Positions 5,458 through 40,886 of a stretch of 64,000 nt of DNA are shown one piece after another. How positions within the stretch are numbered: the first letter of the stretch is position 1; the number at the start of each line of letters is the position of its first letter. The notes under the pieces were generated by a model that saw nothing but the letters and a program-made list of their open reading frames with translations, was not told where the DNA came from and did not search any database. Source of the DNA: Spirosoma montaniterrae. GTDB lineage: Bacteria; Bacteroidota; Bacteroidia; Cytophagales; Spirosomataceae. The position numbers and the translations under genes are program-made. The stretch lies in assembly GCF_001988955.1 (NCBI RefSeq), contig NZ_CP014263.1, positions 868,001-932,000 on the forward strand, in the 5' to 3' direction.

Positions 5458-7947
5458 ATGCATAAATTGTTTACGCTCATTTGTTTCGCCCCGTTTTTTC
5501 TACCGAAATCAGCTTTCGGTCAGGGCGAACTGACGGGTTTGATTGTCGATAAAACAACGGCCAGACCTGTTCCATATGTGAGCGTTGCGCTGTATCGCCC
5601 GGCAGATTCGATGGCTGTTGCCGGTGCCATTTCCGATTCGGTAGGCATGTTTCGCATTGGGCGGGCAACACCGGGGCAATATGTGCTTAAAACGTTCTTT
5701 ATCGGCTATAAACCGCAGCAGGTAGGGCCGGTAACGGTCAGGCGCGGACAAACGCTCGACGTAGGAACAATTTTTCTGGAAGCAACCAATAATCAGCTTA
5801 ACGAGGTGGTGGTAACGGGGCAGCGAGCCGACCTGACCATAAAAGCCGACCGTCAGACGTACCGGGCTGCGCAGTTTCAATCGGCAGTGGGCGGCACGGC
5901 AACAGATTTGCTGCGAAACCTGCCCGGCATCAGCATCAATGCAGAGGGCGAAGTAACGCAGCGTGGTGCCAATGGCTTTCTGGTATTGCTGAATGGTAAA
6001 CCCATTCAGGCCAATTTGGGAACGCTGCTCAACCAACTGCCCGCCAATACCGTTGAATCCATCGAAGTGATCACGACGCCATCGGCCCGCTACGACCCCG
6101 ACGGTAAAGCGGGCATCATCGCCATCACAACCAAAACCGGGGCCGATCTGGGGCTGTCGGTACTGATAAACGGGCAAATCGGGTTGCCCAGCCTGTATGC
6201 CTTCAGCAACGCCCGCAATCCCGTTCGCTACGGCACCGACGTTACGCTTAGCTACCGCTCCGCCCGCTGGGACTGGACCCTCAGTACGGCCTACCTTCGT
6301 AACGACATTGCCGGTCGGCGCGAGGGCGACGTGAACACCACCATTGGAAACCGCTTTACAACCTTTCCAAGTGTAGGCGAACGAAGTTTTGACCGCTACA
6401 CATTTACGAACCGACTGGCCGTTAGCTTTACGCCCAACAAAACGAATATCTGGTCGGGAGGACTATACTACGGCTACCGAACCGAAGACCGCATCGCCGA
6501 TCTGGTTTATAACAACCGCACCATTGACCGGAATACGGGCCAGATGATTAGTCAGATCAGTTACTTCAACGCCAATCTGGTTCGTAAACGCGGGCAGTTT
6601 TTTACAGCCAATCTCGATTATACGCACACCTTTGCCAACAAAGCCACGCTGACCGCGAGTGCACTGTATGAATACGACTATTTAGACGGTTTCACGCGCA
6701 ACCTCAATGTGCGCCGGTCCGACATCCGCGATACACTGCAATACACACTAACCACCACCGACCGGCCTATTCGTAATGCCCGCGCCAACCTTGACGCTAC
6801 ATGGCCGCTGGCGGGTGGCAAACTCGAAGCTGGCTACCAATACCGGCTGCAACAGGACGACGGGACGTATCGGTTTCTGGAGCAGAACGGACGCGGTGTC
6901 CCGCTGCTCGTAGTTGATGCCTTTACGGGTCGGGTGCGGGTCGATAATGTGATTCACAGCCTGTATAGTCAGTACGGCAGGAAGACAAAAGCCTGGGAAT
7001 ACACAGCGGGCTTACGATTCGAATCGGCTGACCGGCAGGTGGTTATTCGCCCGCAGGGGCAGTCGTTTCCGCTTACGCTCAACAACCTGTTCCCATCGCT
7101 GAATGTGGTTTATCGCCCCAAAGAGGTCTGGCAGTTTCGACTTGGCTACAGCCGCCGGGTGCAGCGAACGAGCAACTTAGCCCTCAACCCGCTGCCCGAA
7201 CGTGAACATTCCGAAACCCTCGAACAGGGCGACCCGGCTCTGCTGCCCGAATTTGTTGACCTGACCGAGCTGGGCCTGACCCGCACGCTGGGCCGCAGCA
7301 CTGTTCAGGCCACGCTCTATCATCAGAACGTACAGAACATCGTGAATCGGGTCAACAGCGTGTTTGCCGATACCATTCTGAACCGGATTTACACGAATGC
7401 AGGCCGGGCGCAGCGGCTCGGTATCGAACTCGCTACGGATTTGACAATCAGCAGACTATGGAAGCTATATGTTGGCGGCACGGTCTATCGGTCAACCATT
7501 GCCGGGCAGTTGTTCCAGAACGCTGTTGTGTTTAACAACCGGGCATGGGTTTATTCGGTCAATGCCAACACCACCCTACAACCGTCGCCAACGTGGATAA
7601 TTCAGGCAAATCTGAACTATCTCTCGCAGCGCATTACGGCGCAGGGCGAAGATTCACGCTTTTTCGTGCCGAATTTGTCGGTCAGGAAAAGTTTCCGGCA
7701 AAACCGGCTGTCGGTCATGATGCAGTGGCAGAATATCGGCATGGGCTGGCTTCCGGCCAACGAACAGCGCATCACCACGCGGGGCGAATCCACGCCGGGC
7801 GTATCCACGCGGGGCCGCAACTTTTTTACGACGACTAACTACATTCAGGAGCGGGACGTGCTGCTTATCAACGTCAGTTACTCGTTCCGACAGCGTACCA
7901 AACCCGCCAAACTGCCCACCAATGAGTTTGGCGATAAGGAATTTTGA
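5458..7947 (+). CDS. outer-membrane receptor with CarboxypepD-reg and plug domains
   Basis: An 829-residue outer-membrane protein of the TonB-receptor-like family with a large C-terminal barrel. A signal peptide ends near SAFGQ (residue 22). A carboxypeptidase-regulatory-like domain covers about 25-110 (VPYVSVALYRPADS, GQYVLKTFFIGYKPQQ). A plug follows (about 120-225; ELNEVVVTG-type box as QLNEVVVTGQ, LLRNLPGISINAEGEV, GKPIQANLGTLLNQLP). The remaining 600 residues are alternating beta-strand sequence. It ends without a typical terminal aromatic strand. No SusD neighbour is present. The palindrome upstream separates it from the WYL gene. Confidence 0.85.
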   Translation: MHKLFTLICFAPFFLPKSAFGQGELTGLIVDKTTARPVPYVSVALYRPADSMAVAGAISDSVGMFRIGRATPGQYVLKTFFIGYKPQQVGPVTVRRGQTLDVGTIFLEATNNQLNEVVVTGQRADLTIKADRQTYRAAQFQSAVGGTATDLLRNLPGISINAEGEVTQRGANGFLVLLNGKPIQANLGTLLNQLPANTVESIEVITTPSARYDPDGKAGIIAITTKTGADLGLSVLINGQIGLPSLYAFSNARNPVRYGTDVTLSYRSARWDWTLSTAYLRNDIAGRREGDVNTTIGNRFTTFPSVGERSFDRYTFTNRLAVSFTPNKTNIWSGGLYYGYRTEDRIADLVYNNRTIDRNTGQMISQISYFNANLVRKRGQFFTANLDYTHTFANKATLTASALYEYDYLDGFTRNLNVRRSDIRDTLQYTLTTTDRPIRNARANLDATWPLAGGKLEAGYQYRLQQDDGTYRFLEQNGRGVPLLVVDAFTGRVRVDNVIHSLYSQYGRKTKAWEYTAGLRFESADRQVVIRPQGQSFPLTLNNLFPSLNVVYRPKEVWQFRLGYSRRVQRTSNLALNPLPEREHSETLEQGDPALLPEFVDLTELGLTRTLGRSTVQATLYHQNVQNIVNRVNSVFADTILNRIYTNAGRAQRLGIELATDLTISRLWKLYVGGTVYRSTIAGQLFQNAVVFNNRAWVYSVNANTTLQPSPTWIIQANLNYLSQRITAQGEDSRFFVPNLSVRKSFRQNRLSVMMQWQNIGMGWLPANEQRITTRGESTPGVSTRGRNFFTTTNYIQERDVLLINVSYSFRQRTKPAKLPTNEFGDKEF

Positions 7948-10531: not shown

Positions 10532-12412
10532 ATGACCACACCGCGACTACTTGGATTACTGGGCTGGCTATGCGTTCACGCAGCCGCTGCCCAGACGCCC
10601 GTGCTGACTCTGACCGATTCGGCCCGGTATGTTAATCTCTGGGGGCAAACCGGCGTTGATTTTTACGTCGATTCGAGTCGTTACCTAACCCGGCAGCAGG
10701 TAGAAAGGCGGGCGTTTCGGCCAACGGCGGGGCGCAGTAGCAGTTTCGGCTTCACCAATGCCAGCATCTGGGTACGGTTCCGGCTCCGCGATGCTTCCCC
10801 TTTGCCCGTTGCCCGCGTGATTGGTTCGGATTTCAACCTGATCGATACGCTCGATTATTACCTGATTCGCGAAGCTACCGGGCAGGTGATTCATCAGCAA
10901 AACGGACGTTTGATTCCGCACCACCAACAGCGCATCGATAGCCACTCGCGCATTTTTCCGCTTCATGTACTGCCCAACGAAACCTACGCGGTCTATTTCC
11001 GGGTGGCGGGCCGAAACGCGAAACGGATTGAGCTGACAATCGAAGAAACCTATCAGCATCAGGCTGGTTATCAGCGGGCAACCTGGTTTTGGGCGGGTTA
11101 TGTCGGCTTTTACCTGACTATGATTTTGGTGCAGGTAATCTTCTTCGCCATGACCCGCAACCGCAATTCGCTCTATTACTTGCTGTATCTGTGCGGATTT
11201 TTGCTGGTTGAAGTGTGCCGGGGCAACGGCATGATTGGCGACCGCTACCTATGGCCCGATGCTACCTGGTTTAAAAGCAATAGCCTGCTTATTGGTGTGC
11301 CAGTGTCTACGGTGTTAGGTATGTGGTTCTACGCCAACGGCTTGCGGCTCAAACAGTATGTACCCGTGTTGTACCGGGTCTTACAGGTCGATGCCGGGGT
11401 AACGCTGCTGCTGGCCGGGTGGGCACTGAGTAAGTCGGCAGATACCAACGTCGTGCAGCATGTGCTATTTACTGCTTTGGCATCTGATCTGCTGGTGCTG
11501 GTGGCTTGTTTCTGGGTGTGGCGTAAAGGGTATCAGCCGGCCCGGTTCTACCTGCTCGGTACGCTCTGCTTTTTCGGTAGCATTGTGGTAACGCTGTTCT
11601 GGAACCTCGGCCTGTTACCCGATCATTTTATTACGGCGCAGTCGCTCAATATTGGCTGTGTGCTGGAAATGCTATTCTTTACGACTGCCTTAGCCGACGA
11701 ATACCGCCTGACGCAACGCGAAAAACAACAGGCACAAACCGAACTGATCGATGTCTTGCAAAACCGGAACAACGAGTTGCGGGCAGCTCAGCTACAGGGC
11801 CAAACCCTCGAACGGCAGCGCGTAGCCGCCGACCTGCACGATAACCTCGGCAGCACCCTCTCAGCCCTGCACTGGAATCTTCAGGCCATGAACACCAGCC
11901 AACTGACTCCTGCCGAACAGGCCGTATATACCGCCATTCGGCAGCAGATCGGGCAGGCATATACCGATGTGCGACTCCTGTCGCACAACCTCTTACCACA
12001 GGAACTGGCAAAACAAGGGTTGCCCTCGGCCCTGAAAACACTGGTCGGTAGATTAAACAGAAACACAACCACGCACTTTAACCTGACGGATATTGAGATA
12101 GTACCCCGACTCGACCCGCAAACCGAGTTTGAACTCTACAGCATTTGCCTCGAACTGGTCAACAACACCCTCAAACATGCCGGAGCTACCGAAGCAACCA
12201 TTACCTTCAGCCTGACCGACGACACGCTGCATCTGCACGTTACCGACAATGGTGTGGGCCTGAACGAGCAAACGACCAACGGCTATGGTATGCAGAATAT
12301 AGCCGCCCGGATAGCGTCTATTGGCGGGCAGTGGTCGGTTGAGTCGGAGCCGGGCGCGGGGGTTCGGCATCAGATTCAGGTGCCAGTTGGGGCACCCGTC
12401 GGCAACGGTTAA
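10532..12412 (+). CDS. 7TM-DISM sensor histidine kinase
   Basis: A 626-residue membrane kinase. After a signal peptide (ending AAAAQ) there is a periplasmic 7TMR-DISM extracellular domain (about 30-175). Seven transmembrane helices follow (about 183-390; the first is WFWAGYVGFYLTMILVQVIFF, given as start), then a coiled coil. The HisKA_3 box ADLHDNLGS has the phospho-acceptor His at about residue 436. The HATPase has an intact N-box (ELVNNTLKHA) and G1 box (DNGVG). Sugar- or lipid-like ligands are suspected for DISM domains. Its likely partner is the convergent LuxR-type regulator whose stop lies 3 bases away. Confidence 0.9.
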   Translation: MTTPRLLGLLGWLCVHAAAAQTPVLTLTDSARYVNLWGQTGVDFYVDSSRYLTRQQVERRAFRPTAGRSSSFGFTNASIWVRFRLRDASPLPVARVIGSDFNLIDTLDYYLIREATGQVIHQQNGRLIPHHQQRIDSHSRIFPLHVLPNETYAVYFRVAGRNAKRIELTIEETYQHQAGYQRATWFWAGYVGFYLTMILVQVIFFAMTRNRNSLYYLLYLCGFLLVEVCRGNGMIGDRYLWPDATWFKSNSLLIGVPVSTVLGMWFYANGLRLKQYVPVLYRVLQVDAGVTLLLAGWALSKSADTNVVQHVLFTALASDLLVLVACFWVWRKGYQPARFYLLGTLCFFGSIVVTLFWNLGLLPDHFITAQSLNIGCVLEMLFFTTALADEYRLTQREKQQAQTELIDVLQNRNNELRAAQLQGQTLERQRVAADLHDNLGSTLSALHWNLQAMNTSQLTPAEQAVYTAIRQQIGQAYTDVRLLSHNLLPQELAKQGLPSALKTLVGRLNRNTTTHFNLTDIEIVPRLDPQTEFELYSICLELVNNTLKHAGATEATITFSLTDDTLHLHVTDNGVGLNEQTTNGYGMQNIAARIASIGGQWSVESEPGAGVRHQIQVPVGAPVGNG

Positions 12413-12415
12413 TTT

Positions 12416-13057
12416 TTAGGATACCAACCCGTATTTCATGGCAAACTTCACCATGCCGACAACGCTTTTGACGCCGAGTTTCTGCATTAGATGTCGGCGA
12501 TGGGTTTCAACGGTCGGTATGCCGATAAACAGCTTTTCGGCAATCTGGTGAGTGGGATGTTCCTCCGCAATGAGCCGCAACACGTCAACCTCGCGCTCAG
12601 TCAGTGTAGCGAGTGGGCCGGAGTCTGTCGATTCGTGTTGCTCAATCTGCACCAACTGTTCAAACACTTCAGGGCTGAAGTAGCGTTGACCGCACATGAT
12701 GGTGGTAATAGCTTTTTCGAGTTCGTCGCGCCCGGCCCGTTTCAGCACGTAAGCCGTCACGCCTGCCCGCACGGCCTCGCGGATCGTAGACGCGTCTTCG
12801 GTCATGGTTAGCAGTAGCACTTTCAGGCCGGGATGTGAATGGCGCAGCCGCAACGTAAGGTCGATGCCCGACAGATGGGGCATGTGCAGGTCACAAACCA
12901 GTATGTCGGCTTCTGTTTTTGCCAGCGCGGCAGTAACCAGCCGGCTGTCGTTCAGACCACCAACAACCTCCACGCCCGGCACCGAAGCCAGCAGCGTCTG
13001 AAGGCTGTCTAACAATAGTTGGTGGTCATCGACAAGCAATAGGCGAACCGGTTTCAT
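12416..13057 (-). CDS. LuxR-family response regulator
   Basis: A 213-residue NarL/LuxR-type response regulator. The receiver domain covers about 1-120 (LLLVDDHQLLLDSL, phospho-acceptor Asp in LVCDLHMP, conserved Lys in AYVLKRAG). The DNA-binding domain covers about 148-213 (LTEREVDVLRLIAEEH, IPTVETHRRHLMQKLGV). It lies tail to tail with the 7TM-DISM kinase, which is probably its cognate kinase. A dyad overlapping a -7-like element lies upstream. Confidence 0.9.
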   Translation of the reverse strand: MKPVRLLLVDDHQLLLDSLQTLLASVPGVEVVGGLNDSRLVTAALAKTEADILVCDLHMPHLSGIDLTLRLRHSHPGLKVLLLTMTEDASTIREAVRAGVTAYVLKRAGRDELEKAITTIMCGQRYFSPEVFEQLVQIEQHESTDSGPLATLTEREVDVLRLIAEEHPTHQIAEKLFIGIPTVETHRRHLMQKLGVKSVVGMVKFAMKYGLVS

Positions 13058-16502: not shown

Positions 16503-16847
16503 TCAGGGTTTCTGGTCAAATTCGAGTACTACGTGGTCGTATCCTTTCATCTTTTGACGAACAAGCTGTACCAATGGGCGGATAAGATAGGTGCGAATGG
16601 TGTGCCATTCGTGGATAGCTCCCCGCTCGTCGCGGCCAATGCGCCTTCTTTTTCGTTCGGGATGCCGCTCGAAAAAAACGTGGTCGGTCAGGTAATTTTC
16701 ATCAGTTTCTCCATCATTGATTAACTCATACACCGATTTGGGAAGCCAGACATTAACAATGGCATGAACCTTTACAGGCCCCAGGGATAGTGTTAAGTCA
16801 GATTCGTGTAGTGTGGTCATCTCTTTGTGCAATAGGTTTCGTTCCAT
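16503..16847 (-). CDS. unknown small protein, last gene of the gluzincin operon
   Basis: A 114-residue cytoplasmic protein. The N-terminal half is beta-like (LTLSLGPVKVHAIVNVWLP), followed by a charged stretch (HVFFERHPERKRRRIGRDERG) and a helical end (RTYLIRPLVQLVRQKMKGYD). The start could be internal at MTTLHESDL (codon 10). It follows the 591-residue coiled-coil gene by 42 bases and probably belongs to the same transcript. I do not recognise it. Confidence 0.5.
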   Translation of the reverse strand: MERNLLHKEMTTLHESDLTLSLGPVKVHAIVNVWLPKSVYELINDGETDENYLTDHVFFERHPERKRRRIGRDERGAIHEWHTIRTYLIRPLVQLVRQKMKGYDHVVLEFDQKP

Positions 16848-16889
16848 GACAGTGGTGTTTATCGGATGGCTAAGAACACGTTTTTGGGG

Positions 16890-18665
16890 TTAGTTAGCCG
16901 ATACGAGGGCTGTGGCGCGTTCGGGCAGGGATGCGTAGGCATTTCGGTAGCCTTCTACCCAGCCTTCTACGTCATCGAGCCAAAGGTCGAGCGTGCCACC
17001 CACAGCCACCGTCGAAAACTGCGACAGGTCGGCGGTTTCGATGTCGGTCAGCAACCGGTAGCCATACGAAGCGCAGTTGTCGTGGATGATGAAACGGTTG
17101 GTTTCGTTCAGCGTTACGGGTCGGCCCGTCACCAGCAGGTCATAAGCCGCCGGAATAAACTCTTCGGGACGCTCGTACTGGTCGGGGATACCAATTTCTT
17201 TCCGAACACTGTTGAGCAAACAGAGCGTCATATGTACGGTGGCAATCCCCAGAAAGGTGTTGATCTGATTGCGCCCGTACTGAAACGGCTCAAACTGCTG
17301 CTTCAGCACATTGATGGTGTCGCGAATGGACGTTTGCGTAGCCACCGACGACCGAAACTCTGCCGCGTTGTTGATGGCCCTCGACAATTGCTTGGTTTTG
17401 TAATACTCCAGCATGTAGTCGATGAGCTTGTTAAACGATTGCATAAAGCCCTCGTTGCGCTCGGTTTTGGCATTCACCGTGTTATCCAGACTCACGCCTA
17501 ACACGCGCTGGTAGGTACAAACCCGGTCGCGCAGGTTCGAGGAAATGCCCAGCCGGTGTAACGTACAAACGGCGTCCATCAGCACCGAATAGCTGTTGGC
17601 GTTGCCGTTTTTGTCGCGCCGACTGCCAGAGAGCGTGTATTTTCCGGTGTAATTATAGTCGTCCATGAGCGCACCCAGAATCTTGAAAATGCCCATGCGT
17701 TCGTAGTAGTAGAGCCACAGCACCGCGCCCACGGTCAGGCCCTGGGTAGCGAAGGCAAAGAAGGCGCGGCTGATGGGGTTGCCGTCTTTGTCTTTGGCCT
17801 TGATGAGTCGGTCGTCGGGCAATGAGAACAACCGTTCATAGTGAAACAACGGCAGGCAAAACTCCGTTGGGTCGCGGTCGAAACAGGCGTCGGCTCGGGC
17901 GGTCCGCCCGGTGGTTAGGGCGTTGAGTTGGTCAGATGCCGAATCAGAAGCCGTTTGGGCGGCTTCGAGGCTGGTTTTGGTCTGGATGTTGGGCGCCTGT
18001 TCAAACTGTTTCTGCGCTCGTTTGAGGGCGTTTTCGGTGTTCGCGAAAACAACCCGTGCTTTCACAACGGCGTTGTCGTAGCTCGTTTTTTTCTGGCTGT
18101 AATCGTCGTCACTGGCTTTCCATTCACTTTGGGCCAGCGCAAACTTCTTTACTTTATCGGCCAGCGTGGCCAATGGGCTGGTCAGTTGTTCCTTTTTCAG
18201 CGTTTTTGTTTTGGCGTCGAATGCTTTCCATTTGCTGTCGAGGTCGGTATTGCTGAATAAGGCTTCGCGCAGTTCGCGTTGTTCGGCATACTCGGCTATC
18301 TCTACCTCATTGATGCGGAACTCCATAAGTTGCCAGGCTTCAACCAACTCCTGACGGGCCTTATCTAAGACCAGCGTTTTACTGCGAAGGTCGGTGTCGG
18401 CTTGCTGTAGTTTGGTTTTCTCGTCGGCAAAATCGCGACCTTTCGAGGTGGCGGGGCCGTTGGCGCAGTCGCAAATAAACTTTGCCAGCGTCAGGGCGTA
18501 GTTTCGGTTCAGGAAGTTGGGCAGGGCCGACGGGCCGGGGTATTGCGTGTCGAAATAGCCGGACTCGACCAGACTCAGGGTTTCGTTGTATTGATTGCGG
18601 AGGTGAAACGTTTTGATGGCCTTCCAGTCGAAGGTGTTGGTTGGATTCACGAATAGCGTTGCCAT
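16890..18665 (-). CDS. large coiled-coil protein of unknown function
   Basis: A 591-residue protein with no signal peptide. Residues about 75-250 are strongly heptad-like and rich in Lys, Glu, Ala and Gln (KTKLQQADTDLRSKTLVLDK, NTENALKRAQKQFEQAPN), typical of an extended coiled coil. A hydrophobic stretch follows at about 300-335 (FFAFATQGLTVGAVLWLYYY). The C-terminal 250 residues are globular and contain Cys residues and Tyr-rich helices (LIDYMLEYYKTKQLSRAINN). I cannot name a family. It follows the HExxH gene by 25 bases in one operon, so the two proteins probably work together. Confidence 0.6.
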   Translation of the reverse strand: MATLFVNPTNTFDWKAIKTFHLRNQYNETLSLVESGYFDTQYPGPSALPNFLNRNYALTLAKFICDCANGPATSKGRDFADEKTKLQQADTDLRSKTLVLDKARQELVEAWQLMEFRINEVEIAEYAEQRELREALFSNTDLDSKWKAFDAKTKTLKKEQLTSPLATLADKVKKFALAQSEWKASDDDYSQKKTSYDNAVVKARVVFANTENALKRAQKQFEQAPNIQTKTSLEAAQTASDSASDQLNALTTGRTARADACFDRDPTEFCLPLFHYERLFSLPDDRLIKAKDKDGNPISRAFFAFATQGLTVGAVLWLYYYERMGIFKILGALMDDYNYTGKYTLSGSRRDKNGNANSYSVLMDAVCTLHRLGISSNLRDRVCTYQRVLGVSLDNTVNAKTERNEGFMQSFNKLIDYMLEYYKTKQLSRAINNAAEFRSSVATQTSIRDTINVLKQQFEPFQYGRNQINTFLGIATVHMTLCLLNSVRKEIGIPDQYERPEEFIPAAYDLLVTGRPVTLNETNRFIIHDNCASYGYRLLTDIETADLSQFSTVAVGGTLDLWLDDVEGWVEGYRNAYASLPERATALVSAN

Positions 18666-18690
18666 GGGCGTAAACGGGTTTAGGTGATTG

Positions 18691-19917
18691 CTACAGGTTT
18701 GTGAGCCATTCAGTCATGGCGGTATCTAACGTGCGGAGGCTGGTTTGCCGGCTTTCGCGCATCAGCCGAAACACGGCCAACTGAACGCCAATAGGTTGCT
18801 GCCGAAAGCTGGTTGTACGAATGGCGGCTTCGTTTGCGAGTCGTTTCAGGACCGTCGGCGACAGGTCTTCGAGCGAGAACAATCCGCTGATGGGCTTATG
18901 GTCAAACTTTGTAAACCGGGTTTCGCAGAAAATGCGGGCCACCACCGGCAAAAATCGTTCGAGCGTTTGGTAGGCTTCCTGCATCCGGGCCGGGAGCCGC
19001 GTCAGCGGGTAATTTTGCTTCCAGTTCTGCTCCCACTCGTCCCAGTCGCCCCGCCCCCAAATGTGCCGACACCAGGCCACCGATACCAGAAAACGCAGGT
19101 AGCCGGGCGGGTGGGTCAGACGAGTGGTGAGGTAGGTAGCCTGTTCATGGCTCAGAAACAATACGTCGCGCAGGCTGCACGTCTGGGCCATACCCGTCAG
19201 GCAGAACGCCCAGAAGTCGGGGCCTAACTCGCGCACCCAGTTGGCAAATAACGCCCGCACAAATGCAGGTGCGCCCGCCTTGCCCAACTGCTCATCGAAC
19301 AGTCGCCGAAGCAACGGCACCATATTCAGTTTCATCAGCGTCTGATGCCCCACTTCGTGATAAACCGAGATGAGGTTGTATTTCTCAACCAATCGTGAAT
19401 ACGGCACGGCAATGAACTGCATGGGGTTGGGCGTATTGGCCAGTAGCGGTACGCCTTCGCGGCAGGTACTGGCCCCGAACCCCCGGTCGCAGTACACCAC
19501 CGGTGGAATGGTGATGTCGGCTAAAAAGCCGCGACGGGTGCCGTCGAGCGCAATGGCGTCGCAGCCTTTCAGCAAACTGCCAATGGGCTGGCTTAGTCGC
19601 TGCGTCAGCACGTCCATATACGTATCGTAGAATGTAAACGACTGCGTGATGTCCATCTCCAGTTCGCCTAAAGCTTGCACCAAACGAACCCGCACATCGG
19701 GCCGATTCTGGTCCGACATAAACTGATCGGCATAGCTTTTTAACTTGGTGGTCAACTGGTTGGCCGTACTGTTGAGTTGACTTTCCAGGGCTTCCCACTG
19801 TTCGGGTTTCAGGTCGCGTTCGGGGGGCAGGCTAATATCCCGGCGCAGTTCGGTCAGGGCGTTGGCCCGTAGCCGCAGCGACTCGATTTTGTTCAGAAAA
19901 AACACCGGCGGCTTCAT
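18691..19917 (-). CDS. putative gluzincin-type metallopeptidase
   Basis: A 408-residue protein without signal peptide. It carries HEVGH (His187, Glu188, His191 in VYHEVGHQTLMK) and, 39 residues later, ELGPD (Glu230, Asp234), which matches the ExxxD third-ligand pattern of gluzincins. The N-terminal 110 residues are helical (ESQLNSTANQLTTKLKSYAD). Cys residues occur at 119, 143, 152 and elsewhere. The protease reading rests on these motifs only; the full family is unknown to me. It lies between the acidic-leader gene and the coiled-coil gene with spacings of 12 and 25 bases. Confidence 0.6.
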   Translation of the reverse strand: MKPPVFFLNKIESLRLRANALTELRRDISLPPERDLKPEQWEALESQLNSTANQLTTKLKSYADQFMSDQNRPDVRVRLVQALGELEMDITQSFTFYDTYMDVLTQRLSQPIGSLLKGCDAIALDGTRRGFLADITIPPVVYCDRGFGASTCREGVPLLANTPNPMQFIAVPYSRLVEKYNLISVYHEVGHQTLMKLNMVPLLRRLFDEQLGKAGAPAFVRALFANWVRELGPDFWAFCLTGMAQTCSLRDVLFLSHEQATYLTTRLTHPPGYLRFLVSVAWCRHIWGRGDWDEWEQNWKQNYPLTRLPARMQEAYQTLERFLPVVARIFCETRFTKFDHKPISGLFSLEDLSPTVLKRLANEAAIRTTSFRQQPIGVQLAVFRLMRESRQTSLRTLDTAMTEWLTNL

Positions 19918-19929
19918 ACCGAGGGTGCG

Positions 19930-20727
19930 TCAGAAATAAATTGTAACCCGGTCGTTACGCACCACCACGGTTGCGCCTGCCGGCACTGGAATATCGCGCC
20001 GACGTTTGCCTTTCCAGGTTGAACCACCCTGCGACCGGGCCACGCTCAACGCCTGTCGGCTCAGACTGTTCAGTTGTGCGTTGAGGTCGCCAGGGCGTAG
20101 GTTGCCGAGATTTTGTGCGAGGTGCTGATAGGCGGTTTTGGCGGTTTGTACGGCCTGTCGAGCCTGTTGGCGGGCCACTGGGGCCGTATCGGTTTCTCGG
20201 TTGAGCAGTTGGCCCGCAATGGCCCCGCCAATGCCCGGTGCTACGGCGTTGGCTGCAAATGACAACCCTTTTTTGAACAGGTCGGATTTGAGCAGCCCGC
20301 GCAGGTTGCCGCCCGCCAGTTGGGCCAGCGATTGCAGCGTATTTTTGGGCAGATAGCGGCTTGCTATCGACTTCAGTTTGCCCAGATTGCGCTGCGCGAA
20401 TTTTTTCAGACCATTAAAAAAATACTCGGTCTCCATTTCGTGCAGTACCCGGTCAATTTCCTGCTCCATTTCGAAACTACTTTCGTACTCATTGTTGAAA
20501 GCCGCGTAGAGCCGGTCTTCATACTCCTGTTCGCGGGAGTCGAACTCATTCAGCCAGTTTTCATTGTCCGGGTTACTCCATTCTGCCGACGTTTTGGAAT
20601 CGGTTTCCAGTTCAAATTCATCATTTATTTCAAAAGCCGAACCGCTGTCCGTTTCAGTCTCGAAAGCGGTGTCGGTTCCAAACTCCTGCTCAAATTCGCT
20701 CAGGTAGTCGTTCTGATACGTTGCCAT
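19930..20727 (-). CDS. acidic/aromatic-leader protein with glycine-zipper segment
   Basis: A 265-residue protein with three parts. Residues 1-102 are extremely acidic with aromatic residues spaced among Glu/Asp (SEFEQEFG, DEFELETD, NEYESSFEMEQE). Residues 103-175 switch to basic, amphipathic helix and end in a glycine zipper (ANAVAPGIGGAIAGQLL), which resembles a membrane-inserting or oligomerising segment. The C-terminus is basic (KGKRRRDIPVPAG) with a final strand (VVVRNDRVTIYF). It lacks a signal peptide. It is first in an operon with the gluzincin-like gene, whose product could process it. I do not know the family. Confidence 0.55.
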   Translation of the reverse strand: MATYQNDYLSEFEQEFGTDTAFETETDSGSAFEINDEFELETDSKTSAEWSNPDNENWLNEFDSREQEYEDRLYAAFNNEYESSFEMEQEIDRVLHEMETEYFFNGLKKFAQRNLGKLKSIASRYLPKNTLQSLAQLAGGNLRGLLKSDLFKKGLSFAANAVAPGIGGAIAGQLLNRETDTAPVARQQARQAVQTAKTAYQHLAQNLGNLRPGDLNAQLNSLSRQALSVARSQGGSTWKGKRRRDIPVPAGATVVVRNDRVTIYF

Positions 20728-20813
20728 GTGTGTACGGGTTTAGTAACCCGACAAAATTCCTGTAGAACAGGGCGGCAATCCATACCATAATCTTGGTATT
20801 TTGCCACGTAGTA

Positions 20814-23800
20814 TTACGTAGCGAGCGGCACCGAAACGGTGGCCGAGGTACCCGCACCGGGCGAGGAAGTAATGTGGCAGTTGCCTTTGAGCAACTCGAC
20901 GCGCTGCCGGATGTTCAACAGGCCATTGCCGCCCGATGCGCCGTTTGGCCGGGTAGCGTCGAAGCCCCGGCCATTGTCGTGGTAGTCAACGTAAAGCTGG
21001 TCGGGAGTGGTGCGGAGGGTGAGCATAGCTTCGGTGGCCTGCGCGTGTTTGAGGGTGTTTTGCAGCAGTTCCTGCACCACCCGGAATAGGTTGATCTCAA
21101 CGGCTTCAGGCAGCGTGTCGGGCAGGTTCTGCGCCTGATACGTCACCCGTAGCTGCCGACTCTCGTTGAGCAACTGCACCATGTCGGCAATGGTCTGGGC
21201 CAGGCCCTGCTCGTGCAGGTGGCGCGGGTGCATGTCGTGGACCAGCGAGCGCACGTCGCTGACCGAACTGCTCAACACCATCAGCGACCGGTCCCGAATG
21301 GCCTCGACCGACATACCGGGGCTGCCCAGCGCACTCAGGTACAGCTTCAGCACCGACAGATTGGCCCCGATGCCATCGTGCAGTTCTTTGGCAAATCGCT
21401 GTCGTTCGAGCTCCTGCGTCCGAACCGTTACAGTCAGTTCGTTGGCCTGCCGCTGCTGAAGGGCATAGATACGGTAGCGGTACAGGCCGTACATGCCGCC
21501 CATGAGCAACAGCAGCAGCAGCAGCCGAAACCACCACGTACCCCAGAAAGGCGGCTCGATGACAAGCACCATCGATGCCCCCCGGTTATTCCAGATACCA
21601 TCGTCGTTGCTGCCTTTTACCCGAAACACGTAGTCGCCCGGCGGCAGGTTGGTGTAGTTAGCCGTGCGCCGATGCCCGGCCTGTACCCAGCCGGGGTCGA
21701 TGCCAGCCAGTTGGTACTGGAACTGGTTTTTGGTGCTGTTCGAGAAATTCAGTGCCGTAAATGCAAACTGCACAAAGTTCTGACGCGGGCCAAGCGTTAG
21801 CTGCTGTCGGTTCGGATTGTAAGCACTGTCGAAAACCGACACCGCCGTTATTTTTACGGGTGGCACAAACCGGTTCGGCCTAAACTGATCGGGCCGGAAG
21901 TAGGTAATGCCGTTGACGCCCCCAAAAAACAGCGTACCATCGGTATGCTTGTAGCAGACGTTGGTGTTGAACTCGTTGCTTTGCAGCCCGTCGGTCACAT
22001 CATAGTTTTTTACAACTCGTCCGAGCCTGGGCGAAAAGCGCGTCAGCCCCTGATTGCTGCTCAACCACAAATCGCCCTGATTATCGCTGAGTATGCCGTA
22101 AATTACCTCATTGGGCAGGCCGTTGGCCTGTGTATAATGCCGTACTACCCGGCCAGCCCGCAGGTCAAGCTGATACAGGCCGCAGTCGGTACCTACCCAC
22201 AGTATCGAGCCGGTTTGCAGCAGGCCCCGGACGTTAGCGCACGATAGCCCATTTTTATCGGTAAACGATACGGTCGTTCGGCGAGTCAGATCGTAGCCAA
22301 TCAACCCGTTTCCCAGTGTGCCGAGCCAGACCATCGTGCGAACAGGCTGGTAGATAAGCCGGGTGTTATAAGCAGAAACGGCTTGCAGGGCGGGCAGGTC
22401 GTGCCAGGTTTTCCATTGTCTGGTCCGCAGACCGAAACGGGTCAGACCCCCTTGCCCGGCTATCCAAAGCTCTGCCGAATGGCCCGTTGAATCGGTCAGG
22501 GCCAGTGCGCCGTAGGTGTACAGTTGCGTGCGGATGCCCGTAGCCGGATATACCCGCGCCCTGCGCCGAACAGGGTCGTACTGCGCTACCTCGCGCCAGT
22601 TGGCAAACCACAACTGCCCGTCCGAATCGGCGGTTATAACACGGGTTTCGTTGTTCATGGCACTAACCGACTTCGGTACCAGCCGGGCCAGCGAGGTCAT
22701 GCGTCCGGTGGTGGTCGAATACTGGGCCGCCCCGCCTGTTTCGGTGCCGATGTAAAGATTGTCGCCCTGCCCGAATATTCGGAAAATCATGTTATCGGGC
22801 AGGGTAGCTTCGGGAGCCTCGTCGTTTTGCTGAATCAGTCCGAACGGAAATCGTTGCGGGTCGTATTTGTCGATGCCCTGGCTACTGCTGCCCACCCACA
22901 CAATGCCCTGATGGTCCTGATATAACTGCCAGACAAAATCTTCGGCCAAACTGCGCCGACTATACCGCGAATGCCGGACGTATTGAAACTGTTGCGTGCC
23001 GGGGTGATAGATGCACAGCCCGCCCGTGCGGGTTCCGAGCCAGACCCGCCCGGCCCGGTCGCACATACCCGTCGTTACGTCGTTGCCGGTCAGGTAGGGC
23101 GTCGTGCGGGTCGAAAACTGGGTTGCCATACCCGTTGGCCCTATTCGGAACGCACCAGCTTCTGAGGTAGTAACCCACAAATGCGCCTGTTTATCGGAGA
23201 ATACGGTTCGGATGAGCGAGTTCGTGTGCAGTTTCTGCCGAATCTGTGCGGACCTGAACGTGCCACTCCGCTCGTCGTATCGAAACAACTCGTTCAGCAT
23301 GACCACCCAAACCTCGCCCGATGGTTTTACGCAGCCCGATACTAAGGTGTTGTCGTTGGCGAAAAACGGACGCACAGTCCGGCGGGCCGGGTCGAAGCAA
23401 AACAATCCCAGCGAGGTGGTGATAATCCAGATGCGGCCCCGCTTGTCTTCAAACAATTTGTGAATAGCCGCCCGCTCAATCAGGTGGTGCAGCCTAAACG
23501 CTTCGAAAAACGATTGAAACGTACCATCGCGTCGGTCGTAGATATTGATGCCACTGCCCGTACCAACCCACAGCCGCCCCCGCGAATCGGCCAGCAGCGT
23601 CTGAATCAGGTTATTGTTGAGCGAATGCGGCCCGGCTTTACGAAATACGTCGAAGGTGAGACCATCGAAACGATTTAGACCGTCCTGCGTGGCAAACCAC
23701 ATAAATCCATCGTAGCTGACCATGTCGTTGATGGTTCCCTGCGACAGTCCTTCGCTTTGGCCGTAATGCTCAAACTGCATCGGCTCGGGCGCGTTAAATG

Positions 23801-23876
23801 GCCCGGCCCTGTTTGACTGGGCCGATAGCGGCAATGAATGGAGTAGCGATAACAGAACCAGTAGGCAACGTACCAT
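20814..23876 (-). CDS. hybrid-type propeller sensor histidine kinase (Reg_prop, Y_Y_Y)
   Basis: A 1020-residue sensor. A signal peptide (ending PLSAQ) leads to two seven-bladed regulator propellers (about 30-700; repeated motifs such as GLSQGTINDM, RGRLWVGTGSGINIYD and GDLWLSSNQGLTRF). A Y_Y_Y domain (about 715-790; YQLAGIDPGWV, NYTNLPPGDYVFRVKG), one transmembrane helix (about 795-815), a HisKA_3 box ELHDGIGAN (His about 833) and an intact HATPase (DNGRG) follow. It is not fused to a receiver. The start is ATG 23876, because the more upstream codon is TTG. It directly follows its LuxR-type regulator gene. Confidence 0.9.
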   Translation of the reverse strand: MVRCLLVLLSLLHSLPLSAQSNRAGPFNAPEPMQFEHYGQSEGLSQGTINDMVSYDGFMWFATQDGLNRFDGLTFDVFRKAGPHSLNNNLIQTLLADSRGRLWVGTGSGINIYDRRDGTFQSFFEAFRLHHLIERAAIHKLFEDKRGRIWIITTSLGLFCFDPARRTVRPFFANDNTLVSGCVKPSGEVWVVMLNELFRYDERSGTFRSAQIRQKLHTNSLIRTVFSDKQAHLWVTTSEAGAFRIGPTGMATQFSTRTTPYLTGNDVTTGMCDRAGRVWLGTRTGGLCIYHPGTQQFQYVRHSRYSRRSLAEDFVWQLYQDHQGIVWVGSSSQGIDKYDPQRFPFGLIQQNDEAPEATLPDNMIFRIFGQGDNLYIGTETGGAAQYSTTTGRMTSLARLVPKSVSAMNNETRVITADSDGQLWFANWREVAQYDPVRRRARVYPATGIRTQLYTYGALALTDSTGHSAELWIAGQGGLTRFGLRTRQWKTWHDLPALQAVSAYNTRLIYQPVRTMVWLGTLGNGLIGYDLTRRTTVSFTDKNGLSCANVRGLLQTGSILWVGTDCGLYQLDLRAGRVVRHYTQANGLPNEVIYGILSDNQGDLWLSSNQGLTRFSPRLGRVVKNYDVTDGLQSNEFNTNVCYKHTDGTLFFGGVNGITYFRPDQFRPNRFVPPVKITAVSVFDSAYNPNRQQLTLGPRQNFVQFAFTALNFSNSTKNQFQYQLAGIDPGWVQAGHRRTANYTNLPPGDYVFRVKGSNDDGIWNNRGASMVLVIEPPFWGTWWFRLLLLLLLMGGMYGLYRYRIYALQQRQANELTVTVRTQELERQRFAKELHDGIGANLSVLKLYLSALGSPGMSVEAIRDRSLMVLSSSVSDVRSLVHDMHPRHLHEQGLAQTIADMVQLLNESRQLRVTYQAQNLPDTLPEAVEINLFRVVQELLQNTLKHAQATEAMLTLRTTPDQLYVDYHDNGRGFDATRPNGASGGNGLLNIRQRVELLKGNCHITSSPGAGTSATVSVPLAT

Positions 23877-23882
23877 AGGCAA

Positions 23883-24500
23883 TCAAAGCAGACAGTTTTG
23901 CCGGGCTACGCGGGTTAGTTCGATGTTGGTGTGCACACCCAGCTTACGGTAAATATTTTTGCGGTGCGTTTCTACCGTGCGGGGGCTGATGCACAGCCGG
24001 TCGGCAATCTGTTTGCCACTCGCACCCCCGGCAATTAAGCGTACTACGTCGGCTTCACGTTCGGATAATCCGCTGCTGTCGAGCGCGTTTCGGCTGGCGT
24101 GTCGCTGTTCAAAGTACGTAGCAGGCAGGTAAGTCTGGCCCGCACTGACCGTTCGCAGGGCCGTTAGCAATTCGTCGTAGTCGGCACTTTTGATGCAGTA
24201 ACCCGTGGCTCCGGCAGTCAGCATACGGTCCATCGAATGCGTATCGCTCAACATCGATAGGGCCAGAATAGGCAGCGTCGGATATAACCGCCGAACCGTC
24301 TGCGCCAGATCGAAACCCGATACGTCGGGCAGATCGATGTCCAGCACCAGCAGATCGACCGGTTGCCGAACCAGTGTATAGAGCAGGTCGCGTCCACTCC
24401 ACAGTACCGAGGTAACAGTGTAGTCGGTGGTTTGGTCGAGCATGAACCGGAGTCCTTCCGAAAACAAACGATGGTCGTCAACAATCAACAGTCTCTTCAT
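23883..24500 (-). CDS. LuxR-family response regulator of the propeller kinase
   Basis: A 205-residue NarL/LuxR-type regulator. The receiver domain (MKRLLIVDDHRLFSEG, Asp in LVLDIDLP, Lys in GYCIKSAD) is followed by the HTH (LSEREADVVRLIAGGASGKQ, SPRTVETHRKNIYRKLGV). The start at 24500 gives the standard N-terminus; the longer frame would overlap the AraC gene. The stop is 6 bases before the kinase start, so the pair is co-transcribed. Confidence 0.9.
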   Translation of the reverse strand: MKRLLIVDDHRLFSEGLRFMLDQTTDYTVTSVLWSGRDLLYTLVRQPVDLLVLDIDLPDVSGFDLAQTVRRLYPTLPILALSMLSDTHSMDRMLTAGATGYCIKSADYDELLTALRTVSAGQTYLPATYFEQRHASRNALDSSGLSEREADVVRLIAGGASGKQIADRLCISPRTVETHRKNIYRKLGVHTNIELTRVARQNCLL

Positions 24501-24514
24501 AGCATAGGTGTGGG

Positions 24515-25324
24515 TTAGAGGTACTGACTCAACTCGGTGTTGTCCTTCAAGTAGAGCGTTGGTCGCTTGCCGGTAAATTGCGTGAACTCGCGGATAAAAT
24601 GCGACTGGTCGTAATAACCGGCCTGAAAAATAAAATCCTGCCAGTCGGCCACTTGCCAGTGTTGTTGCGCCAGCAACGAACATAAATACCCTATGCGCCG
24701 AATGCGGGCGTAATACTTCGGACTAACACCCACTTTTTGCAGAAACTGCCGCTCAAATTGCCGTCGACAAACGTATAAGTCGTCGAGTAATTCATTGACG
24801 GTCAGCATGCCATACTTGTCAACAATCAGGTTGGCGGCATAATCGGTGCGGTCGAAGCTATCGCCCCGGCGCAGCAGTTGCCGGTTCAGAAACTGTTCGA
24901 GGAGGGTCACGCGCCCGGCCACCGACGGGCTTTCGCAGATTTGTTCGTGCAGATCGGTGAGCGATGCACCCAGCACGTCGGGCAGGGCCACGCGCTCGTC
25001 GGTAAATTCGTACATGGGCAGGCCGAAGAGCGTACTCAAGCCAGCGGGCCGAAACACGATTCCCACCATGCCAATGCGTCCGTTTAGTTCGAGTTCGTAT
25101 TGCCGGGTGGCCTGCCCGGTCAGAAACGAAGCGGGTGCAAGGGTAGTGTGCTTTTCGGTCTGAACGTAGTACGGATCGCCGTAAGAAAATACCATCGAGG
25201 CAAACCCGGTTGGGGGCGATTCGATACGAAGCGGCTGCGCCAATGCATCAGCTTTTTCCCACGCAAAATAGCACTCCACATACGGAGCGAGGTGCGCAGC
25301 AGGCTTGATCTTCTGGTAACGCAT
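24515..25324 (-). CDS. AraC-family transcriptional regulator
   Basis: A 269-residue regulator. The N-terminal sensing domain (about 1-150; HLAPYVECYFAWEK, PPTGFASMVFSYGDPY, GIVFRPAGLSTLFGLP) is of the type common in Bacteroidota AraC proteins. The C-terminal AraC domain (about 165-262) has two HTH motifs (VNELLDDLYVCRRQFERQF; DFIFQAGYYDQSHFIREFTQ). It lies 14 bases upstream of the response regulator gene, so it is the first gene of an AraC-RR-kinase operon. An 8-base inverted pair in the upstream region could be its own site. Confidence 0.85.
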   Translation of the reverse strand: MRYQKIKPAAHLAPYVECYFAWEKADALAQPLRIESPPTGFASMVFSYGDPYYVQTEKHTTLAPASFLTGQATRQYELELNGRIGMVGIVFRPAGLSTLFGLPMYEFTDERVALPDVLGASLTDLHEQICESPSVAGRVTLLEQFLNRQLLRRGDSFDRTDYAANLIVDKYGMLTVNELLDDLYVCRRQFERQFLQKVGVSPKYYARIRRIGYLCSLLAQQHWQVADWQDFIFQAGYYDQSHFIREFTQFTGKRPTLYLKDNTELSQYL

Positions 25325-38597: not shown

Positions 38598-40886
38598 ATG
38601 AACCTAAAAACGGCCTTCTCTTTTTTGCTACTATTCATAGTAAACCATAGTTGTAAACAGGTTTATGATGTAGACGTTACGCAGGATACCAGCGAAGCAA
38701 GTCCCTTTCATGTCTTTTTTATTGACCGTAGCCTGAATGATAATCTTGGCGTCATCGTAACCGATACGAATAAACGAGAAATCAATCTTTTTTATGGTGA
38801 TAAGAACTCTAAGGGAAGTTTAGTTAATGTTCGACAAATTGTTACTTACCTGCCAGAACAAAAACTGTTGTTTAGTTTTGAGTTAAATGAAAATCTGTTG
38901 CCCCAAAAAATTACGAGTATAAAAAACGATACTACTATAACTGTACAGTTGAAAAATTACAACCTGAAAACAAACACGGTAGATGTTGAGATTTATGATA
39001 CACAAAATACACTGATTCAAAGCCGTACAGATGTTTCTTGTGGAGAAGCACTTCTGAAATTTAAAGAAGTCAAAAGGCAGTTTGATATTGAAAAAGGGTT
39101 ACGAGTAGCAGCGGGTGAAGGTTCGAATAACGATGACTGTAATACGACCTTAGGGAAGATTTCATATTACGCTGATGGTTTACAATGCCTTTTAGGCTCA
39201 GTTGGCACTGGTCTATCCCTTTTTGCAGCCCCCGTTACGGGTGGTCTTAGTCTTTTTCTAACAGGCGTAGGAGCTGTTTTTACGGCTGCAAATTGCAGTA
39301 GTTTTCATGAGACACGCATGAAGCTGAATAATGGTGAGTGTATAGAACTGGGCCCTTTAAATGGTATACAACAATTGGATGTAAGTACTACTTGCTCTGG
39401 TATTCTATACGACTTTGCTAAGGGTAAAAAAACTCAGGTAATAGTTGGTACTGTTCTGTGCCTAACTGGTATGCTTGATGCTACAGCTAAACTACTAAAG
39501 GAAAAATTCAACCCTCCGGGCCTGCCCAATGATCCTACATTTCCTACATCTAACGTATTCGGCAAGAGTTTTGGCGACCCTAACATTGTAACCTTTGATG
39601 GTAAATCTTATGAGTTTAATGGCGTAGGAGAATTTGTAGCTACTAAATCATCCACCGATAATTTTGAAATACAGGTGCGTCAGGAAGAACTAAAAAGTCG
39701 AACTAGTTCGGGTAGCGTATCTTGGAATACGGGGCTGGCGATTAATACAGGAAACGATAAGTTGTGCTTTTACCCTACCAAATATTTTATCAATCAAACG
39801 CCGTACACCTACTCTTCTTCTATTGATAATGTCTTACAAAGTGGCGGAAGCATTACGGGAGACTCAAAAACGTTTGTGGTTAGTACAGGCAACGGCGATG
39901 TCGTCAAAGTATTTAACCGGGGTGATGCCCTTGATTATTCCATTATTCCAGGAACTCAGCGACAAGGCAAAATGATTGGTATTTTTGGGAATTATGACAA
40001 GCAGACTGACAATGACTTACAGGTTAGAAATGGCACACTGATCAATGGTGCGTATGGATCACTGTACCCCAACTTTACCAATAGCTGGCGAATTGCCCAG
40101 AATCAATCATTATTCGTGTATGATGTGGGCAAAAATACCGATTCTTATACTAACCGCAGTTTTCCGCGTGCTCCACTTGTGATAAGCGCAAGCCAACGTG
40201 CCAGTGCCGAGCGAGTTTGTCGTGATGCAGGTGTGAAAGCCCCATTTTTAGAGGGCTGTATAAACGATGTAGTAGCTACCGGCGATGCCGGAATAGCACA
40301 AAGAGCCAAAGATTTGCAGGAAGAAAGCATAGTTAAAACATTTGACATAAAGTTTGGGCCGAATGATGATAAGAGTTTGTTAAAGCAGGCTTTTAGCAGC
40401 AATCAGTATGGGACAGAATATCTTCTGTGTAATAGTGTAACTTATCCTGCGATCAACAGACCCATTTCTGTAGTTAATGGATTTGAAACAACTATTTATC
40501 TGGCATCTGAAAGCCCGAATATTATCCCATCCGAACTTTCTTTCAATCTTGGCCGCTACGAATGGCACTGGTCTGTGAAAGCATTAAACAGTGTCGGCAG
40601 ATACAGATTTTATGACCCATTATTATATCTTTTTATGGGAATTGATTCGAATATAGCCATATTCGATGGGAAGCTTCATAAAGTTGTTATCCAGTCGGCT
40701 ATTAATTTAGGTGCAAAAACCAGTACGTACAGGGTCTATTTTGATGATATTCTGGTGTCGGAAAATGTAAATTTTACGATACGACGTTATCGACCCCAAG
40801 ATGAACTTCTCGTAAACCATCAAAACGTATCTTTAACAGTCAATAATACTGTGAAGCTCTATCGATGGTCATTCAAAAGTTATTAG
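38598..40886 (+). CDS. lipoprotein with von Willebrand factor D domain
   Basis: A 762-residue lipoprotein from MNLKTAFSFLLLFIVNHSC; the lipobox gives Cys about 19. The start at 38598 gives this signal. After a helical N-terminal region, a hydrophobic patch (about 205-230; LGSVGTGLSLFAAPVTGGLS) precedes the VWD domain (about 330-515) with FGDPNIVTFDGKSYEFNGVG, GKMIGIFGNYDKQTDNDLQV and LYPNFTNSWRI. A Cys-containing unit (ERVCRDAGVKAPFLEGCIND) follows, and then a beta-rich end. VWD domains are extracellular adhesion modules; in bacteria this suggests surface binding. The gene is about 40% GC by eye over sampled lines. Confidence 0.7.
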   Translation: MNLKTAFSFLLLFIVNHSCKQVYDVDVTQDTSEASPFHVFFIDRSLNDNLGVIVTDTNKREINLFYGDKNSKGSLVNVRQIVTYLPEQKLLFSFELNENLLPQKITSIKNDTTITVQLKNYNLKTNTVDVEIYDTQNTLIQSRTDVSCGEALLKFKEVKRQFDIEKGLRVAAGEGSNNDDCNTTLGKISYYADGLQCLLGSVGTGLSLFAAPVTGGLSLFLTGVGAVFTAANCSSFHETRMKLNNGECIELGPLNGIQQLDVSTTCSGILYDFAKGKKTQVIVGTVLCLTGMLDATAKLLKEKFNPPGLPNDPTFPTSNVFGKSFGDPNIVTFDGKSYEFNGVGEFVATKSSTDNFEIQVRQEELKSRTSSGSVSWNTGLAINTGNDKLCFYPTKYFINQTPYTYSSSIDNVLQSGGSITGDSKTFVVSTGNGDVVKVFNRGDALDYSIIPGTQRQGKMIGIFGNYDKQTDNDLQVRNGTLINGAYGSLYPNFTNSWRIAQNQSLFVYDVGKNTDSYTNRSFPRAPLVISASQRASAERVCRDAGVKAPFLEGCINDVVATGDAGIAQRAKDLQEESIVKTFDIKFGPNDDKSLLKQAFSSNQYGTEYLLCNSVTYPAINRPISVVNGFETTIYLASESPNIIPSELSFNLGRYEWHWSVKALNSVGRYRFYDPLLYLFMGIDSNIAIFDGKLHKVVIQSAINLGAKTSTYRVYFDDILVSENVNFTIRRYRPQDELLVNHQNVSLTVNNTVKLYRWSFKSY

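Follow-up and report, generated by a model that had tools for sequence, protein, structure and literature searches.

The DNA analysed here (the window, 64,000 nucleotides spanning positions 868001-932000 of one 5.8 Mb contig of Spirosoma montaniterrae) contains four minus-strand open reading frames (ORF1 to ORF4; Table 1) that may represent the core of a polymorphic-effector system, the core itself being undescribed, and to this reading we would assign a probability of about 0.45. It is founded on gene order, a conserved active site, a common tag and changing cargo, all read from sequence, and the biochemical steps proposed below would build upon these. None of ORF1-4 matched Pfam or NCBIfam above the cut-off, with only weak matches below it, and the gene set was not found described in the titles and abstract beginnings of the open-licence PubMed Central literature. 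A preceding sequence-only reading of this DNA likewise knew of no system with this gene order and had proposed a protease that matures a membrane-active or self-assembling protein, together with a coiled-coil partner. Its conserved unit, gluzincin pattern, ORF1 homology and undescribed gene set have stood, its coiled-coil partner has not, and the tag and the polymorphic-effector character had escaped it.

Conservation and distribution of the core genes

Thirty stretches, the window included, were compared from two genome collections and from plasmids (five of six plasmid records), and 29 of them carry ORF2; L039 is cut by a contig end and hence stands outside these 29 loci. The loci are grouped as clade A (the window, L002-L005, L027 and L046), clade B (L028-L033, L041-L043, L047, L048 and L055-L057) and clade C (L034-L038 and L040), whereas L058 and L059 are assigned to no clade. 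Upstream of ORF2 stands an ORF1-family gene, on the same strand and within 3 kb, at 21 of the 29 loci as judged by hidden Markov model (HMM), and at six more (L034-L038, with proteins of 830-896 amino acids, and L058) an acidic-leader protein occupies the ORF1 place by position and composition only; at the two remaining loci this place is broken (L040) or empty (L059). Downstream and again on the same strand, the ORF3 family is found by homology at 20 of the 29 loci (7 of clade A and 13 of clade B), and the six clade C loci present in the ORF3 place a helical family of their own, A5, after a small gene. L042 stops after ORF2, and no accepted ORF3 is present in L058 or L059. Window ORF1 alone, used as a query, gave strong matches upstream of ORF2 in L003, L004, L005 and L027, weak ones in L031 (E 1.5e-4), L032 (0.0026) and L042 (0.0041, the first of two copies), and a match to the L039 gene at 1e-6, and the ORF1 models also match loci outside their training (L029, L030, L048, L055 and L056). 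By homology and position, ORF1, ORF2 and ORF3 constitute a conserved, ordered core in Bacteroidota and on plasmids of Proteobacteria. Neither of the outcomes that the sequence-only reading had named as fatal to it, membership of the genes in well-characterised unrelated families and a gene order conserved in no relative, was found.

The distribution of ORF2 is patchy and crosses phyla. It occurs in 17 of 222 family genomes (broken in one, G213), in 6 of 395 class genomes and in 8 of 395 phylum genomes (one of the eight marginal and partial), these genome sets overlapping, and on 6 of 72,556 plasmid records, from Rhizobium, Ensifer, Paraburkholderia and Bradyrhizobium.

Three local departures from this arrangement were observed. 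A small clade-C-specific gene encoding 103-135 amino acids lies between ORF2 and the ORF3-place gene in L034-L038, and the one copy scanned (L034:9004-9396) has no Pfam match. One genome of the genus holds the three core genes in pieces (L040, 6417-11819), with intact relatives elsewhere. On the Bradyrhizobium plasmid (L059, 8450-28495) the ORF2 relative stands among CHAT, patatin, phospholipase D, GMC oxidoreductase, M4 peptidase and metallo-beta-lactamase-fold genes, has no ORF1 or ORF3 match beside it and resembles a different effector or conflict cluster.

ORF2, a putative gluzincin metallopeptidase

The gluzincin pattern first noticed in ORF2, comprising HEVGH at 187 and ELGPD at 230 with E230 located 39 residues past H191, is borne out and is kept at about 20% identity. 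Residues H187, E188, H191 and E230 show no variation across an alignment of 44 sequences, made up of the window protein and 43 others from the best 120 of the 334 homologues returned (44-67% identical to the window), and none in a 30-sequence set covering the three clades down to 20-23% identity, where W227, D234, G242, H269, P270 and R275 are invariant as well. E230 may serve as the third zinc ligand. The predicted structure (predicted local distance difference test, pLDDT, 88.9; predicted template modelling score, pTM, 0.86) presents the HExxH motif on a helix at 183-196 and E230 on another at 218-241. A Foldseek comparison of this model with solved structures returned nothing at or below 0.001 (best E 0.54), with VIA rows mainly over residues 1-115. 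Since no solved structure matches the model, ORF2 is assigned to the gluzincins by motif and not by fold, and is best regarded as a putative metallopeptidase of this type.

ORF1, an acidic-aromatic leader joined to a glycine zipper

Residue composition bears out the acidic/aromatic N-terminus, the basic stretch and the glycine zipper that had been described for ORF1. Residues 1-102 contain 32 Asp or Glu, 4 Lys or Arg and 16 Phe, Trp or Tyr; residues 103-135 contain no acidic and 7 basic residues; and residues 136-175 contain 8 Gly and 7 Ala, with G/AxxxG/AxxxG/A spacing from 159, 161 and 163. Acidic-aromatic dipeptides number 9 in the leader against a shuffled mean of 5.0, a count reached in 47 of 2000 shuffles. 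Window ORF1 shares 29-45% identity with the six other clade A proteins, and twelve from clade B bear leaders of DEFDDEF type or repeats of FEFGNE type, a glycine-rich centre and a common C-terminal GxWxR motif in which G222, W224 and R226 are invariant. The two clades align by hhalign (97.9%, E 3.5e-13) over window residues 82-234, and ORF1 of these diverged clades is judged homologous outside the leader on this alignment. Its length across the loci ranges from 225 to 896 amino acids. In L032, L042 and L043, two ORF1-family genes stand in tandem ahead of ORF2.

ORF3, a helical protein with a variable coiled coil

A homologue search with ORF3 returned 151 sequences, and in 50 aligned sequences from among the best 120 of these the conserved region extends over about 260-585, including a hydrophobic motif around LTVGAVLWLYYYERMGIFKILGALMDDYNY. 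The hydrophobic patch noted from sequence is located inside this conserved core, and the coiled coil noted with it is consistent with the helices that the model (pLDDT 87.9) displays across 77-252. In homologues of 445 and 477 amino acids, however, most of the coiled-coil stretch is missing or short, and the coiled coil is therefore a variable insertion rather than the conserved part of the protein. As a partner feature, the role first proposed for it, the coiled coil is accordingly not supported.

A shared N-terminal tag and the composition of ORF4

All but one of the seven clade A loci have genes past ORF3 that start with a common tag, with the variants MERNLLVREV, MERDFLFREI, MLQRNLLYKEV, MEKNLLVREV and MFERNLLFREL; the window version is MERNLLHKEM. 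When the tag was searched as a DNA pattern across 36 genomes of the genus, it occurred in four (G000, G182, G195 and G202), which are precisely the genomes whose ORF2 is intact; all six matches sit at the locus, with none for a reversed-pattern control. Four genomes picked at random would coincide in this way once in 58,905 cases, a figure whose real weight is lower because three of the four genomes are close relatives.

Behind its tag, ORF4 contains a 50-residue domain (LTNxIFxxRHPxLxGR...EW...I...P, the HP domain) that also occurs in L002, L004 and L027 and, internally, in protein P0243, where a domain of this type is placed after an amidase and before a weakly transglycosylase-like part. 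Of the 222 family genomes, three contain the HP domain, which in all of them lies at the locus; its model was trained on those three genomes, and the informative part is therefore its absence elsewhere. The fourth gene, which had been left as small and without assignment, is thus composed of the tag and a domain of longer downstream proteins in relatives. No remnant of further cargo was found downstream of it. ORF4 is accordingly read as a tag and adaptor domain lacking an effector domain, which would leave the cargo slot of the window empty.

Variable proteins downstream of the core

Twenty-five downstream proteins from all clades were scanned, with pyridoxal phosphate (PLP) enzymes, M20 peptidases and amidohydrolases set aside and L035, L036, L042, L057 and L058 outside the scan, and 11 of them bear a Pfam domain above the cut-off. 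The tagged proteins of L005 combine Amidase_2 with PG_binding_1 and SH3 with an AHH nuclease, and elsewhere in clade A the tag is followed by OmpA (L004), by a PG_binding-like part below the cut-off (L003) or by nothing found in Pfam (L002). In the other clades, Glucosaminidase, DUF2272 and PG_binding_1 occur in L056, PG_binding_1 and GIY-YIG in L055, PG_binding_1 in L037, L034 and L048, OmpA in L034, eCIS_core in L047 and Peptidase_C70 in L040. The deaminase-like matches all fall below the cut-off, and the HNH-like and M15-like assignments were made solely by eye. Proteins that differ in their N-termini share domains, as in L005 and L037 (36% over 343 amino acids, E 3e-58) and in the OmpA parts of L004 and L034 (37% over 130 amino acids), and this recurrence of domains from clade to clade, joined to unlike N-termini, is why a polymorphic-effector character is proposed. 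In several relatives, ORF1-3 are followed by interchangeable proteins with domains predicted to cut peptidoglycan or nucleic acid.

Two further features of these regions were observed. In L047, two genes past ORF2 (5805-6818), the eCIS_core protein (E 1.9e-15) also carries a weak match of phospholipase C-like type; its genome gave no match to the sheath. A conserved amidohydrolase lies downstream of the core in L028-L033, L043, L047, L055 and L057, sometimes with an M20 peptidase or PLP enzyme.

The same downstream proteins might instead act at home, ORF1 forming a fibre or gel whose assembly ORF2 triggers and the wall enzymes acting on the envelope of the producing cell itself or during development. 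Six of the 11 domain-bearing proteins are peptidoglycan-binding or -cutting and two are OmpA, ORF1 has acidic-aromatic repeats and a glycine zipper, no immunity gene was seen by eye near the L005 nuclease, and the window has ORF4 only, all of which would suit surface assembly and wall remodelling. The AHH and GIY-YIG nuclease domains do not fit such a role, nor does occurrence in only 17 of 222 family genomes fit a housekeeping function, and this explanation is unlikely.

The enzymes of clade B bring to mind a peptide-product cluster, with ORF1 as a leader-bearing precursor, ORF2 as the leader protease and the PLP enzyme, M20 peptidase and amidohydrolase as tailoring enzymes. Their recurrence downstream and the position of a leader-like protein directly upstream of a protease agree with it, but these enzymes are not found in clades A and C, ORF1 is long for the part at 225-896 amino acids, and the nuclease and wall-enzyme genes would be left unexplained, making this account improbable.

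Possible routes of delivery

Phage_sheath_1 is present in 27 of 222 family genomes, namely in 1 of the 17 with ORF2 (below the cut-off) against 26 of the 205 without it. Six further ORF2 genomes include two with a sheath above the cut-off (G584 and G601), for a total of 3 of 23, and none was found in the genome of the window. VipB/TssC was absent from all 23 ORF2-bearing genomes, an E. coli control being matched, in a search limited among secretion systems to sheath and VipB. Contractile delivery is not the rule for ORF2 loci. These counts bear on the proposal that the locus is a cargo module for an extracellular contractile injection system (eCIS) or type VI secretion system encoded elsewhere in the genome, with ORF2 in the role of the DUF4157/eCIS_core peptidase. 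As far as the source goes, eCIS loci likewise have toxins at the 3' end and an HExxH partner (PMC8213781), eCIS_core occurs in L047 and sheath genes exceed the cut-off in the two genomes named above; set against the scarcity of sheath and the lack of VipB, the proposal has little probability. The type IX secretion system (T9SS) is given as restricted to Bacteroidetes (PMC7073777, in the part used here), and therefore could not be an exporter shared by all loci if the plasmid-borne core of Proteobacteria functions in the same way.

No signal peptide had been recognised in any of the four proteins, and by hydropathy, on which this judgement rests, ORF1-3 indeed have no signal-type N-terminal hydrophobic segment, but ORF4 has a weak one (KD19 1.14, residue 18). 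The apparent lack of signal peptides in ORF1-3 and, by eye, in the tagged proteins would also suit an intracellular defence or suicide system of the abortive-infection kind, in which the protease releases nuclease and envelope-damaging effectors, and the Bradyrhizobium relative L059 does sit with CHAT, patatin and phospholipase D genes. That relative, however, has no ORF1 or ORF3 match, eight proteins (ORF1-3 and five relatives) matched no PADLOC family at E 0.1, and enzymes that act on peptidoglycan need help to get to it from the cytoplasm; abortive infection is accordingly a poor candidate.

Upstream regulators

Among the 13 loci of clades A and C, 10 have a LuxR/GerE-type regulator upstream of ORF1 (a 149-residue protein in L034, L037 and L038) and 4 a kinase, and 11 of 14 clade B loci have a sigma-54-activator-like gene on the opposite strand within 8 kb. 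The order regulator, kinase, ORF1 is common to the window and L035, the clearest case, whose kinases are 29.5% identical over 1050 amino acids (E 1.5e-120).

Proposed mechanism and its weighing

If a polymorphic-effector system has its core here, the upstream regulator and kinase would switch the operon on, and ORF1 might self-assemble or insert into a membrane as a carrier by way of its acidic-aromatic leader and glycine zipper. ORF2 would then cut ORF1, the cargo or both, leading to maturation or release, ORF3 would be a helical adaptor that binds the cargo tag, and the effectors could reach other bacteria by a route not necessarily in need of a contractile sheath. The fuller proposal, that ORF1-3 are an unrecognised protein-delivery device in Bacteroidota and Proteobacteria in which a zinc protease fires or releases a self-assembling acidic/glycine-zipper carrier and a helical adaptor loads tagged, signal-less effectors, all without contractile sheath or T9SS, is doubtful.

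Several observations weigh against a polymorphic-effector system. A clear tag was not seen in L046, nor any in clades B and C, and the genome of the window has one tag match and one HP-domain match, both ORF4, with no catalytic domain and an additional match at E 0.39 only. The counts of 21 and 20 in 29 loci arise partly by construction, because HMMs A3-A7 were partly trained on the loci scored, and they are not independent, given the near-identical loci L003/L004/L027, L028/L029/L030 and L037/L038. The A5 proteins of clade C have no demonstrated homology to window ORF3 and stand behind the small gene. Fourteen of the 25 scanned downstream proteins lack a domain above the cut-off (6 weak, 8 none), no immunity gene was seen beside the L005 AHH nuclease (by eye, with no systematic search), and metabolic-looking genes are frequent in clade B (amidohydrolase at 10, M20 peptidase at 5 and PLP enzyme at 5 of 14 loci). 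The regulator families are common and were mostly named by eye, and their proximity counts have no control.

Several described systems offer partial likenesses, each given here to the extent of the source portions used. Polymorphic toxin systems (Zhang et al. 2012, PMC3482391) have variable enzymatic C-termini (HNH/AHH, OmpA, glucosaminidase), a shared N-terminal region and a nearby processing metallopeptidase; the shared region may find its counterpart in the clade A tag, with a putative role in trafficking. Such systems also have adjacent immunity genes, none of which was recognised here by eye at L005, and the ORF1-3 core and the tag were not met in that part of the account. The eCIS share toxins at the operon 3' end, an associated HExxH protein and regulators (PMC8213781), but differ in the sheath, which only 3 of 23 ORF2 genomes and not that of the window possess, and in VipB (0 of 23). 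The contact-dependent killing system Cdz of Caulobacter (PMC5380434) also features glycine-zipper proteins, which are believed to form assemblies on the cell surface, but that portion of the source describes no protease-cargo series. Bacteriocins of the Cdz type are marked by neighbouring type I secretion genes and an immunity protein. The TANFOR polymorphic toxins (PMC7073777) of Bacteroidota combine a common N-terminal region with variable toxin C-termini, but most have a periplasmic signal peptide and a T9SS link, whereas the present tag is not signal-like (by eye) and the core is also found on Proteobacteria plasmids. Should the locus prove to be such a system, these conserved genes without Pfam or NCBIfam match would form the heart of a system, present in two phyla, that carries toxins by a delivery logic of its own; three protein families would acquire names, effectors could be predicted from position and tag, and the question raised would be how enzymes with no recognisable signal peptide leave bacteria that have no sheath.

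Locus layout and minor observations

The four minus-strand ORFs are 12, 25 and 42 bases apart, as originally reported and as their coordinates confirm (Table 1).

Table 1. Features of the locus and its surroundings, in window coordinates
Feature	Position	Strand	Description
ORF1, 265 aa (amino acids)	19930-20727	minus	acidic/aromatic leader 1-102, basic amphipathic stretch 103-135, glycine zipper 136-175, basic C-terminal part
ORF2, 408 aa	18691-19917	minus	gluzincin-type metallopeptidase by motif, HExxH 187-191 and E230
ORF3, 591 aa	16890-18665	minus	helical; conserved core ~260-585, variable coiled-coil insertion ~77-252
ORF4, 114 aa	16503-16847	minus	cargo N-terminal tag MERNLLHKEM and HP domain (~45-98), no C-terminal cargo
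Sensor kinase (named by eye)	20814-23882	minus	directly upstream of ORF1; probable member of the unit
LuxR-type response regulator (named by eye)	23883-24683	minus	upstream of the kinase; probable member of the unit
Second kinase and LuxR-type regulator, convergent	10532-13057	plus (kinase), minus (regulator)	few kilobases downstream of the cluster

The 9-mer TAAACCCGT occurs on the minus strand at 18674-18682 and 20734-20742, a few bases ahead of the ATG of ORF3 and of ORF1, respectively. A pattern extended from the ORF3 TAAACCCGT site matches only itself and one more site, at 38645 (3 mismatches).

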